From assembly GCA_017527065.1 (NCBI GenBank), contig JAFXQO010000078.1:1-45443 (forward strand): a stretch of 45,443 nucleotides of DNA. Direction: 5' to 3'. This document shows positions 25,269 through 28,454 of this stretch, piece by piece. The DNA is from Clostridia bacterium (GTDB lineage: Bacteria > Bacillota > Clostridia > Christensenellales > Aristaeellaceae). The notes beneath the pieces are model-generated. The model was not told where the DNA came from, made no database searches, and saw only the letters and a list, made by a program, of their open reading frames with translations. Numbering within the stretch: position 1 is the stretch's first letter; each line of letters opens with the position of its first letter. The position numbers and the translations under genes were made by a program.

Positions 25269-25316
25269 TCCGCCCCATAGGGCCGTAAAAAACGAACCGA
25301 CGCCAAACGAAAGCGG

Positions 25317-25925
25317 GTGTTTTGCTTGAAGGAGCTGCTGCTGAAAATTCGCGCCCTGCTGAGCCGCCTCGGGGAGAGCGGCGAGCCGCTGGCCGCCACC
25401 GCCGCCGTGGCGCTGGGCCTTCTGGAGGAGGGCGACCTGTTCGCGGACGGACCGGAGCTTTCGGCCGTCGGAGACGGCGCGCCGGCCGTCGAACGCGTCG
25501 CCCCGGCCGATCCCCTGCTGGCGGCCGGCGCGGCCTTCGCCCTGCAGCGGCGGGGAGAGGGCGGCGTGGTCGTGGCCCCGGCCCAGGACGCGGACCGGCT
25601 TTACGAGGCCATCGCCCTGGCGGTGCGGCTGGCGCTGCCGCTGGTGCTGCTGGTCAGCTGCCGGCAGTCGGCGCTGGACGGGCTGTCCTCCCGGGTGATG
25701 GCGGCGGACATGGCCTGTATCCCCGCCGACGGCCGGGGCGTGATGAACCTGATGCCCGCGCTGCGCCTGGCCATCGACAAGGCGCGGGAAGGCGACGGAC
25801 CCACGCTGATCGAGTGCGTATCCGACCAGGCCCCGGAGGATGAGGACACCCCCGCCTCGCCCCTCGATCGGCTCAACAGCGTGCTCATCCTGGAGGGCTA
25901 CGCGCTACCGGAGGAACTGGCATGA
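25317..25925 (+). CDS. E1-alpha-like protein, TPP motif lost (pseudo-dehydrogenase)
   Basis: A 202-residue protein whose centre and end align by eye with the alpha subunit of pyruvate/branched-chain 2-oxoacid dehydrogenase E1. ADPLLAAGAAFALQRRG matches the LPIAVGAALA region, LYEAIALAVRLALPLVLLV matches the NLAAVWKLPVVFV helix-strand, and ALRLAIDKAREGDGPTLIE is a near-perfect copy of the late E1-alpha signature, followed by a (T)PASPLDRLNSVLILEG match. The GDG...NN thiamine-diphosphate motif is gone (PAQD and CR at these places), and the normal 320 residues are cut to 200, so catalysis is not expected. Start GTG 25317 or TTG 25326; neither has a good ribosome site. Its stop overlaps the next start (ATGA). 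Confidence 0.75.
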   Translation: MFCLKELLLKIRALLSRLGESGEPLAATAAVALGLLEEGDLFADGPELSAVGDGAPAVERVAPADPLLAAGAAFALQRRGEGGVVVAPAQDADRLYEAIALAVRLALPLVLLVSCRQSALDGLSSRVMAADMACIPADGRGVMNLMPALRLAIDKAREGDGPTLIECVSDQAPEDEDTPASPLDRLNSVLILEGYALPEELA

Positions 25926-26830
25926 GTATGATGAACTGCTCCGCGGCCCTGCAGGCCGCGCTGGACCAGGCGGCCCAGCGCATGAATAACCTGATGGTGA
26001 TCCACGTCGACCCGGACGCGGCGGACGCGACTTCGGGACGCCGCCTGTCGCTGCCCCTTTCGTCCGACGCCCAGCTCGCCTTCGCGCTGGGCTGCGCCCA
26101 GGCCGGGCTGCGTCCCGTGCTGGACCTGACCGCCCTGCGGGACGCGCCCCAGCGGCTGCAGGCCGCCTTTGCGGCGCTGCCCCGGGCCAGCCGCCGGCCC
26201 CTGGTCATCCGGGTGGCCGCGCGGCGCTGCCCCGCCCTGCCGGGCGTGCGCGTCATCGCGCCGGCCAACGCGCGGGAATGCGCCGGGGCCATGCGCTTCG
26301 CGCTGCAGGCCGACCTGATCTCGGTGATCGTGGAAAATCCGCTGATCGCCTACGAGGCCTGCGAGGTGCCCGACGAGCCGGAGGAGCTGTTCTCCGGCGC
26401 GCCGCTGCCGGAGGAAACCCCGCCGGAGCCCCCCGCGGTTGCCCCTGTCGAAACCGCCGAATCACCCGCCGAACCGGAACCCGCTCCCGCCCCGCTTCGC
26501 GCCATGGCCTGCCGCATCCGCCCCTACGACCCGGCCGGGCTGACCCGCGTCGCCGCGCTGCTGGGCCGCGCCCGCGGCGAACTGGCGGCGCTGTGCTGCG
26601 CCAAAGCGGGCCGGACGGCGCAGGTTGATCTCGAAACGGACGCCGCGCTGGGCGAAACGGCCTGCCTGCCCCCGGAGGCAGGCGGCGCCCGCCTGTGGGT
26701 GGGCTGCGACCGGCTGGCGCTTTGCTGGGATCCCGGCGCGCTGCCGGAGGAAGAGGCCCGGTCGCTCCTCAGGGAAACAGCGGCGCTTTTGGAGACGCCG
26801 GAGCGGCTCATTCTGGAAAGGGACTCATGA
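25922..26830 (+). CDS. E1-beta-like protein with E2-like tail, active sites lost
   Basis: A 302-residue protein. Residues 1-155 follow the E1-beta layout: CSAALQAALDQAAQRMNNLMVIHVD (opening), SSDAQLAFALGCAQAGLRPVLDL (the ISE...GAA..GLRPV block), RRPLVIRVAARR, then LPGVRVIAPANARECAGAMR (the PGL-V-PS-P-DA block). The glycine-rich His loop between them is deleted. After a Pro/Glu-rich hinge (160-192), a last segment, LWVGCDRLALCWDPGALPEEEARSLL and LLETPERLILE, matches the end of E2 acyltransferases, but DHRxxDG is absent. I infer a non-catalytic assembly of PDH-derived modules. It overlaps the upstream gene by 4 bp and the converging sulfatase by 6 bp. Confidence 0.75.
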   Translation: MSMMNCSAALQAALDQAAQRMNNLMVIHVDPDAADATSGRRLSLPLSSDAQLAFALGCAQAGLRPVLDLTALRDAPQRLQAAFAALPRASRRPLVIRVAARRCPALPGVRVIAPANARECAGAMRFALQADLISVIVENPLIAYEACEVPDEPEELFSGAPLPEETPPEPPAVAPVETAESPAEPEPAPAPLRAMACRIRPYDPAGLTRVAALLGRARGELAALCCAKAGRTAQVDLETDAALGETACLPPEAGGARLWVGCDRLALCWDPGALPEEEARSLLRETAALLETPERLILERDS

Positions 26831-28327
26831 CCGCGTGATCTTCGCGAACCCGCCGTAATCGCCGAAGGCGGGGCCCTTGGCGAAGGCGGTGGACACGTGG
26901 GCGATCAGGTCGAGGGTGAGCCGCGCGCGCACGGCCGCGCAGGCGGGATCGTCGAAGAGGTTGCGCCACTCCATGGGGTCGCGCTCCAAGTCGTACAGTT
27001 CGCCCCGCATGGGCGTGTCGTCCAGCACGGAGCCGTCCCGGAAGAGGATGAGCTTCCACTTTTCCGTGCGCCACATCCAGGCCGGGGCGGGCTGGGTCTT
27101 CTCGCCGCCGCCCCCGTGGAACTCGCAGAACGCGCCGCGCCGGAACCAGTCGCCCAGCAGGTTCGTGCCGGGCAGGCGCGGGTCGGGTTTTACCCCCGCG
27201 GCGGCGCAGAGCGTGGGCACGATGTCGGTCAGCATGGCGGGCCGGCTGTCCCGCGTGCCGTGAAGCGCCGCGGGCACGGCGTCGCCCGCCAGGATCAGCG
27301 GCACCCGCACGCTGGAATCGAACAGGCAGTATTTGCTGTAGCGGTTGTCGCGCTCGCCCATCATGTCGCCGTGATCGGAGGCGAAGAGGAACAGCGCGTT
27401 TTTGTCCAGCCCCTTTTCGCGGATCTTATTCAGCACGGAGCCGATGAACCAGTCCATGAAGGTACAGTTGGCCCAGTAGCGCAGGGTGATGAGCCGCTTC
27501 TCCCGGGGGGAGAGGCGGTCCAGCGTCTCCTTGCGGCCGTAGTGCACCCGGTGAAGCGACTCGCTGACCCGCATGGCCGCGGCGATGTGGGTGTCCGGCT
27601 CCTCCTGCCAGGGGGGCTCGGGCAGGTCCGGGACGCCGTCCAGGTCGTACATCGCCTCGAACTCGGGCGGCACGTTGAAGCCCGCGTGGGGCTTGATGAG
27701 GGAAAAATAGAGGAACAGCGGCTTTTCGCCCGGCTCGTACCCCTCCAGGAATTCCATGCACTTGCGCCAGATGAAGCCGTCCCTATGGCGCTCCTTGGGC
27801 AAAAGCGAGGGCTTTCCGATGTAGCCCTTCGCGTTTTCCTCGCCGGAGCCGAACTCGGCGGTCTCGGCGTAGTAGGCGGCGAGGCCCTCGGGGTCCTCGT
27901 CGTCCATCATGGTCGCGCCTTCCTCCCAGAGCACGGAGTTTTTCGGCTGGCCCTCGGCGCGCACGTCGAAGCCCCGGCGCGAGCCGGCCTCGCCCTTGCG
28001 GCAGTTGTTCCAGTGGGTCTTGCCGAAGCCGGCGCAGAAGTAGCCCGCGTCGTGCAGGATCTGGGGCAGCGGCGCGGCGGGCAGGCGGCTCTCGTCCAGC
28101 AGCGCGCCGGCGTTGGAGCGCACGCCCGTCTGGGAGGGATACATGCCGAACATCAGGGAATTGCGGCTCGGCACGCACATGGGGCACTGGCACACCGCCT
28201 GGTCGAAGAGGACGCCCTCCCGCGCGAGCGAATCGACGCCCGGCGTGATGACATGGGGATTGACGCAGCCCAGCGCGTCGAAGCGCTGCTGGTCCGTCAT
28301 GATCATGATGATATTGGGCCGTTCCAT
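26825..28327 (-). CDS. Cys-type sulfatase, cytoplasmic form
   Basis: A 500-residue arylsulfatase-superfamily enzyme. The metal-binding start PNIIMIMTDQQRFDALG is followed by the formylglycine signature C51-VPSR (CMCVPSR). Later blocks are FGKTHWNN near residue 98, FLYFSLIKPHAGFNVP, and LFLFASDHGDMMGERD, supplying the rest of the metal and sulfate site. Being Cys-type it needs anaerobic maturase (anSME) or FGE; none is in the window. No signal peptide is seen, so it probably acts inside the cell on imported sulfated sugars or choline sulfate; the substrate is unknown. ATG 28327 follows GGGAGGT; a longer frame to 28447 has no ribosome site. A TATAAT lies at 28364-28359. Confidence 0.93.
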   Translation of the reverse strand: MERPNIIMIMTDQQRFDALGCVNPHVITPGVDSLAREGVLFDQAVCQCPMCVPSRNSLMFGMYPSQTGVRSNAGALLDESRLPAAPLPQILHDAGYFCAGFGKTHWNNCRKGEAGSRRGFDVRAEGQPKNSVLWEEGATMMDDEDPEGLAAYYAETAEFGSGEENAKGYIGKPSLLPKERHRDGFIWRKCMEFLEGYEPGEKPLFLYFSLIKPHAGFNVPPEFEAMYDLDGVPDLPEPPWQEEPDTHIAAAMRVSESLHRVHYGRKETLDRLSPREKRLITLRYWANCTFMDWFIGSVLNKIREKGLDKNALFLFASDHGDMMGERDNRYSKYCLFDSSVRVPLILAGDAVPAALHGTRDSRPAMLTDIVPTLCAAAGVKPDPRLPGTNLLGDWFRRGAFCEFHGGGGEKTQPAPAWMWRTEKWKLILFRDGSVLDDTPMRGELYDLERDPMEWRNLFDDPACAAVRARLTLDLIAHVSTAFAKGPAFGDYGGFAKITRS

Positions 28328-28454
28328 GGCGGCACCTCCCGCAGGTTTTGTTGAGGCTATTATAGCACATCCACCGTGGGCGCAACAGGGCGCAGGGGGA
28401 AAACCGGCTGAATAATTATCGTGAATTTTTTTACGAAAATGCCGCAATAAATGA

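Follow-up and report, generated by a model that had tools for sequence, protein, structure and literature searches.

The window analyzed here, that is, the whole stretch of 45,443 nucleotides, contains two adjacent open reading frames, ORF A and ORF B, on the forward strand. The first-pass annotation had described them as an open, tightly coupled pair retaining segments of the E1-alpha, E1-beta and E2 components of pyruvate dehydrogenase (PDH), and the positions of both frames, as well as their coupling via an ATGA overlap, are confirmed. ORF A is preceded by an ACT and DUF711 gene pair, with DUF711 ending 48 bases upstream of the ORF A GTG codon, and a sulfatase gene (26825–28447) converges on ORF B, the frame ends overlapping by six bases. 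The features are as follows.

25269..25316, + strand: gap between DUF711 and ORF A; the TTGxTT-N17-TATAAT sequence of five relatives is absent
25317..25925, + strand: ORF A, pseudo-E1-alpha, 202 codons from GTG 25317, with Pfam and NCBIfam matches
25515..25919, + strand: E1-alpha-like core, residues 67–201, by hhalign and alignment with intact E1-alpha; GDG, NN and RGH-loop positions deleted
25922..25925, + strand: ATGA shared by the stop of ORF A and the start of ORF B; all six homologous pairs have this overlap
25922..26830, + strand: ORF B, pseudo-E1-beta/E2 fusion, 302 codons, by PRK09212, 1ik6 and Foldseek
25922..26395, + strand: head similar to the E1-beta pyrimidine domain, residues 1–158, by hhalign; HSQS loop deleted
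26396..26506, + strand: linker rich in P, A, E and D, 37 residues in the window copy, by composition and low AF2 pLDDT
26507..26827, + strand: E2-like tail, residues 196–302; homology detectable only from approximately 26708; DHRxxDG replaced

TTG 25326, which aligns with the ATG of the homologue from a second genus (G116), may be the true start of ORF A.

Homology of the two proteins

ORF A matches the Pfam E1_dh model above threshold (25.5 bits with the gathering score of 22, E 7.6e-6), and E1_dh matches are found in all six pseudo-E1-alpha proteins, whereas the match to the NCBIfam model PDH_E1_alph_x (TIGR03181), at 5.8e-12, is far under the cut-off of that model. In profile–profile comparison (hhalign), residues 67–201 align with four intact E1-alpha proteins (99.1%, E 4e-19), and the best PDB match of the six-member ORF A alignment is PDH E1-alpha 3dva (2.8e-9). 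For residues 1–66, no convincing homology to E1 is seen (0.8%, score 16.0, with 15.1 for the best of 100 shuffles). The segment DKAREGDGPTLIECV is invariant in ORF A of all six genomes and partly common to intact E1-alpha; C167 and several charged residues are also invariant among the homologues.

The matches of ORF B to the NCBIfam E1-beta model PRK09212 (2.2e-5) and to Transket_pyr (5.9e-4) are both under cut-off, and at E up to 1 Transket_pyr is found in five of the six ORF B proteins. Residues 1–160 align with 17 intact E1-beta proteins (hhalign, 98.5%, E 1.5e-15), and the best PDB match of the six-member profile (A2) is archaeal E1-beta 1ik6 (4.7e-8). These profile–profile results bear out the E1-alpha and E1-beta ancestry proposed earlier. 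AF2 models, built from three-sequence alignments, are of low confidence (pLDDT 60 for ORF A and 52 for ORF B). Foldseek lists E1-alpha entries first for the ORF A model, with the best at 3.1e-3, TM about 0.3, and none reaching 0.001; for the ORF B model the top 12 rows are all E1-beta entries (best 4.6e-7), and the ORF B head is predicted to have the same fold as E1-beta. In residues 141–264 of ORF B pLDDT is mostly under 50. The linker varies from 37 to 120 residues among the six homologues, with P, A, E and D constituting 58–75% of it.

The E2 piece is the weakest part of the homology case. In local profile–profile alignment the last ~40 residues of ORF B match 26 E2 domains (79.7%, E 1.5e-5) with a score of 39.9, which is reached by none of 100 column shuffles (maximum 19.7); the global hhalign comparison of the tail is uninformative at 1.6%, the local alignment being the one used. 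By plain HMMER, 11 of the 26 E2 proteins outscore all 1,066 decoys, whereas 15, including the E2 of the genus itself, do not. A shorter PDB match of ORF B is to the C-terminal end of E2 succinyltransferase 9njt (3.6e-4). The tail has an LExPxxLI motif in all six homologues, aligned with the E2 end. As in ORF A, a cysteine (C225) and several charged residues are invariant in ORF B. Hence the E2 segment of the first-pass annotation stands for the last ~40 residues by profile comparison, but is weaker by HMMER.

Loss of catalytic signatures

Motif loss was read from alignments of the six pseudo homologues with intact E1 and E2 proteins. We take GDG...NN to be the ThDP/Mg motif, HSQS the His loop and ISE the glutamate motif of E1-beta, and DHRxxDG the catalytic motif of the E2 acyltransferase. 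In these alignments GDG and NN are absent from all six ORF A homologues, and the HSQS loop, from all six ORF B homologues; DHRxxDG is also absent from all six, its positions being substituted. The ISE glutamate is retained in one ORF B homologue out of six (G080). The loss of the catalytic signatures described in the first-pass annotation is thus seen throughout the homologues; intact TPP motifs in close relatives, which would indicate local degeneration, are absent in all six.

In most alignment rows gaps of the pseudo-E1 proteins coincide with the catalytic loops. In pseudo-E1-alpha, four residues are missing at the GDG position in five of six proteins (in G116 the length is kept and the motif is gone), 10 residues at the NN loop and approximately 15–17 at the RGH loop, and the C-terminal stretch of E1-alpha is gone. 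The ORF B homologues have a gap of approximately 9–13 residues at the N-terminal E1-beta loop and of 15 residues (12 in G116) at the HSQS loop. Pfam searches of the six members yield no match to Transketolase_C, the E1-beta C-terminal domain, at E up to 1, and none to PF00198 (E2 acyltransferase), the lipoyl domain or the E3-binding domain.

Accordingly, the pair shares with E1 alpha/beta of pyruvate and acetoin dehydrogenases (PF00676, PF02779, TIGR03181) the detectable core and the alpha-then-beta order, and differs from them both in length (about 200 and 160 residues compared to roughly 320–370 and 325) and in lacking GDG/NN, the HSQS loop and the E1-beta C-terminal domain. A partial parallel is the transketolase-like protein TKTL1, in which 38 active-site residues are deleted and a model variant of which reportedly cannot specifically bind thiamin (PMC3485151). 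Both are relatives of ThDP enzymes with active-site sequence deleted, but TKTL1 is one human protein with a single deletion, whereas the pair has lost sequence at several loops of two bacterial subunits.

Invariant charged residues and cysteines (C167 of ORF A, C225 of ORF B) might be expected of an enzyme that uses the E1 core for an altered reaction without ThDP. This explanation seems to us very improbable, as the E1 substrate and cofactor loops are shortened or changed, no coherent new polar cluster is seen in the alignments, and conserved pathway neighbors are absent at the pair loci; in particular, since the ThDP-binding loops are shortened as well as changed, an altered reaction becomes less likely.

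Conservation, selection and gene neighborhood

The gene pair is present in all five genomes of the genus and in one genome of a second genus (G116). Among 308 genomes of the family, 14 have matches to ORF A and 20 to ORF B, and the near-full-length short form of the pair is found in six; many of these genomes are incomplete, and the absence of the pair from any single one is uncertain. Nine further ORF A loci are located in eight other family genomes; seven of them are intact E1-alpha by profile, and L013 (G132, a 185-aa frame) and L014 (G072) match ORF A without being intact E1-alpha by profile. All 18 further ORF B loci, from 14 other family genomes, are E1-beta by profile. In the phylum-wide search 111 of 398 genomes match the ORF A profile (A1), with only the window's own protein full-length among the matches listed, and in the order-wide search ORF B has matches in three of 396 genomes, the window's own and two partial ones.

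ORF A homologues are 42–83% identical, and the identity of ORF B proteins to the window copy drops to 34%. In each of the two FastTree trees the six pseudo proteins group as a single clade (local support 1.0 and 0.957). As this clade is long-stemmed with no resolved sister in both trees, we rejected the origin of the pair from the fused E1 of the same genome. A viral origin was also rejected, the scan of viral contigs with A1 yielding 30 pattern matches and zero relatives, as was a role in defense, with no PADLOC match for ORF A or ORF B.

Selection was estimated in four congeners (six species pairs per gene) by the Nei–Gojobori method, which is rough for GC-rich genes. Whole-gene dN/dS is 0.335–0.497 for ORF A and 0.341–0.488 for ORF B (0.503 for one pair after realignment), rising by part up to 0.75 in residues 1–66 of ORF A and 0.79 in the linker. 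For comparison, dN/dS is 0.067, lower than in the pseudo pair, for the genuine E2, 0.06 to 0.31 for genuine-looking genes other than ORF A and ORF B, and 1.80 for the shadow frame overlapping ORF A. Among 11 shadow ORFs judged by eye, 10 have dN/dS above 1 (1.19–8.1), the exception being a frame antisense to the sulfatase (0.22); a twelfth control ORF (L043, 157 aa, 0.31) is of ambiguous class. Because one shadow ORF out of 11 is also below 1, dN/dS alone is no proof. All alignment gaps among the four congeners are multiples of three, and the case for selection is made jointly by these in-frame gaps, the kept ATGA overlap and the promoter.

The sigma70-like promoter sequence, TTGATT or TTGCTT followed by N17-TATAAT, is located 53–61 bases upstream of ORF A in all five relatives; the TTGNNN-N17-TATAAT pattern has just 10 sites in 274,880 strand-bases searched, and five of these are the ones upstream of ORF A. 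As the window copy lacks this promoter, transcription reading through from DUF711 may be required for its expression.

These data bear on the possibility that the pair is what is left of a PDH operon in slow decay, open by chance in GC-rich DNA. The catalytic signatures are gone, evolution is fast, and the window copy has no promoter of the type found in its relatives, all of which would be expected of decay; against it, whole-gene dN/dS is about 0.5 or less in every species pair, the indels are in-frame only, the ATGA overlap and the promoter are kept in all six pairs and all five relatives, respectively, and the frames are open at protein identities as low as 42% and 34%. Hence decay is disfavored and we consider it improbable. 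The first-pass view that the pair does not represent simple decay agrees with its occurrence in two genera (six genomes), the purifying selection acting on it, the indels that keep the frame and the promoter in five relatives; the search for the pair and the dN/dS estimates in relatives (0.34–0.50 for whole genes) had been proposed there as checks. From these sequence comparisons, a non-catalytic and evolutionarily conserved pseudoenzyme pair is well supported.

Upstream genes vary among the relatives. The ACT–DUF711 pair, noted earlier as the context of the pseudo-E1 genes, is present in the window but does not occur at that place in four relatives with at least 3 kb upstream (3–7 kb in these four; 263 bases in the fifth, G082); with tblastn matching the window only among the pair loci, it was rejected as a functional context. 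Downstream, an AAA_21-type ATPase gene lies directly 3' of the pair in two relatives (L024 8364–9113, L021 9350–10105) and not in the window, while in the second genus (G116) a short-chain dehydrogenase follows. The ATPase in G083 matched 151 PADLOC models (best 3.9e-17), a result without diagnostic value where AAA ATPases are concerned; a sulfatase is also found near the pair in this genome, past the ATPase.

Genuine PDH and possible function of the pair

The window's genome encodes a genuine E2 with lipoyl, E3-binding and catalytic domains, as well as E3 and a fused E1. The locus (L042 7004–12557, contig 17 of G000) has the order E2, E3, and an 823-residue E1 combining alpha and beta. E2 is above the Pfam cut-off in all five genomes of the genus (partial in G082), and the fused E1 is present in five of the six pair-bearing genomes, the exception, G082, being an incomplete assembly. 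The pseudo pair is located away from the PDH genes. Out of 302 family genomes without the pair, at least 54 (counted by eye) match E1_dh with an open frame of at least 800 aa. Fused-E1 PDH therefore does not need the pair, whose co-occurrence with PDH is not specific; as far as gene content indicates, the pair would be accessory to PDH at most. Two stand-alone proteins of ~300 residues, each weakly matching 2-oxoacid_dh, were also observed (L043 4727–5620 and L044 4767–5711), with no lipoyl region seen by eye; the L043 protein has relatives in G080 and G081.

We suggest the following scenario. ORF A and ORF B derive from E1-alpha, E1-beta and the end of E2, which, given the order of the parts, would have come from an operon encoding a 2-oxo acid dehydrogenase. 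The loops of the active site were shortened or changed; E1-beta lost its C-terminal domain, and its head became connected via a disordered linker to what remains of the E2 C-terminus. Joint synthesis of the two proteins from one message is probable, as the ATGA overlap is kept in six of six pairs and the promoter site in five of six, and they would most likely pair via the retained core, as E1-alpha and E1-beta do. Since the known ThDP-binding residues are missing, the pair probably performs a non-catalytic job, such as binding or regulation. With slightly better than even confidence, we interpret it as a pseudo-E1 heterodimer with trimmed loops and an E2-like tail that serves as a binding or regulatory module, most likely acting on the genuine PDH, this target being inferred.

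The main competing explanation is a stand-alone non-catalytic module with no relation to PDH, whose E1-like core binds another protein or a small ligand. An unrelated partner is a serious rival, since a lipoyl domain, an E3-binding domain and the C-terminal domain of E1-beta all escape detection in the pair, and its genes are unlinked to those of PDH. The invariance of DKAREGDGPTLIECV, part of which is shared with intact E1-alpha, the ATPase gene directly downstream in two relatives, and the long E1_dh frames of at least 54 family genomes without the pair also agree with it. Still, the neighbors are inconsistent (the short-chain dehydrogenase in the second genus, the convergent sulfatase in the window), and the E2-like tail is left unexplained, so that we regard this possibility as tentative, although worth keeping in view.

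If the module does act on the genuine PDH, the E2-like tail might tether it to the core formed by E2. In bovine E2, a hydrophobic C-terminal helix docks in a pocket of the neighboring trimer (PMC9681731). Speculatively, the LExPxxLI tail could reach such an E2 docking socket, with the two proteins acting as an adaptor or brake on the E1 side. An analog would be E3BP/PX of eukaryotic PDH, an inactive E2 paralogue that is reduced in fungi and, in fungi, binds inside the core (PMC10156792). Both have an inactive, reduced E2-like C-terminus after a flexible linker and an accessory role, the latter only proposed for the pair. In contrast to E3BP, the pair is bacterial, has an E1-alpha/beta-like head and no lipoyl or E3-binding domain; its E2-like part is much shorter, and its binding to the core is a proposal. 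A bacterial E1-side counterpart of E3BP, that is, an inactive heterodimer whose linker-tethered E2 mimic sits on the E2 core and tunes E1 occupancy or core assembly, is a doubtful, more specific version of the preferred reading.

Our literature search, of partial coverage, yielded nothing describing such a pseudo-E1 pair. Its significance lies in the joint loss of catalytic signatures by two bacterial subunits, with the gene coupling and the cores kept across two genera and a promoter in the relatives. If the pair acts on the genuine complex, it would represent control of pyruvate entry in a form that we have not found described; if its target is not PDH, it would clearly exemplify how an enzyme pair can become a binding module.
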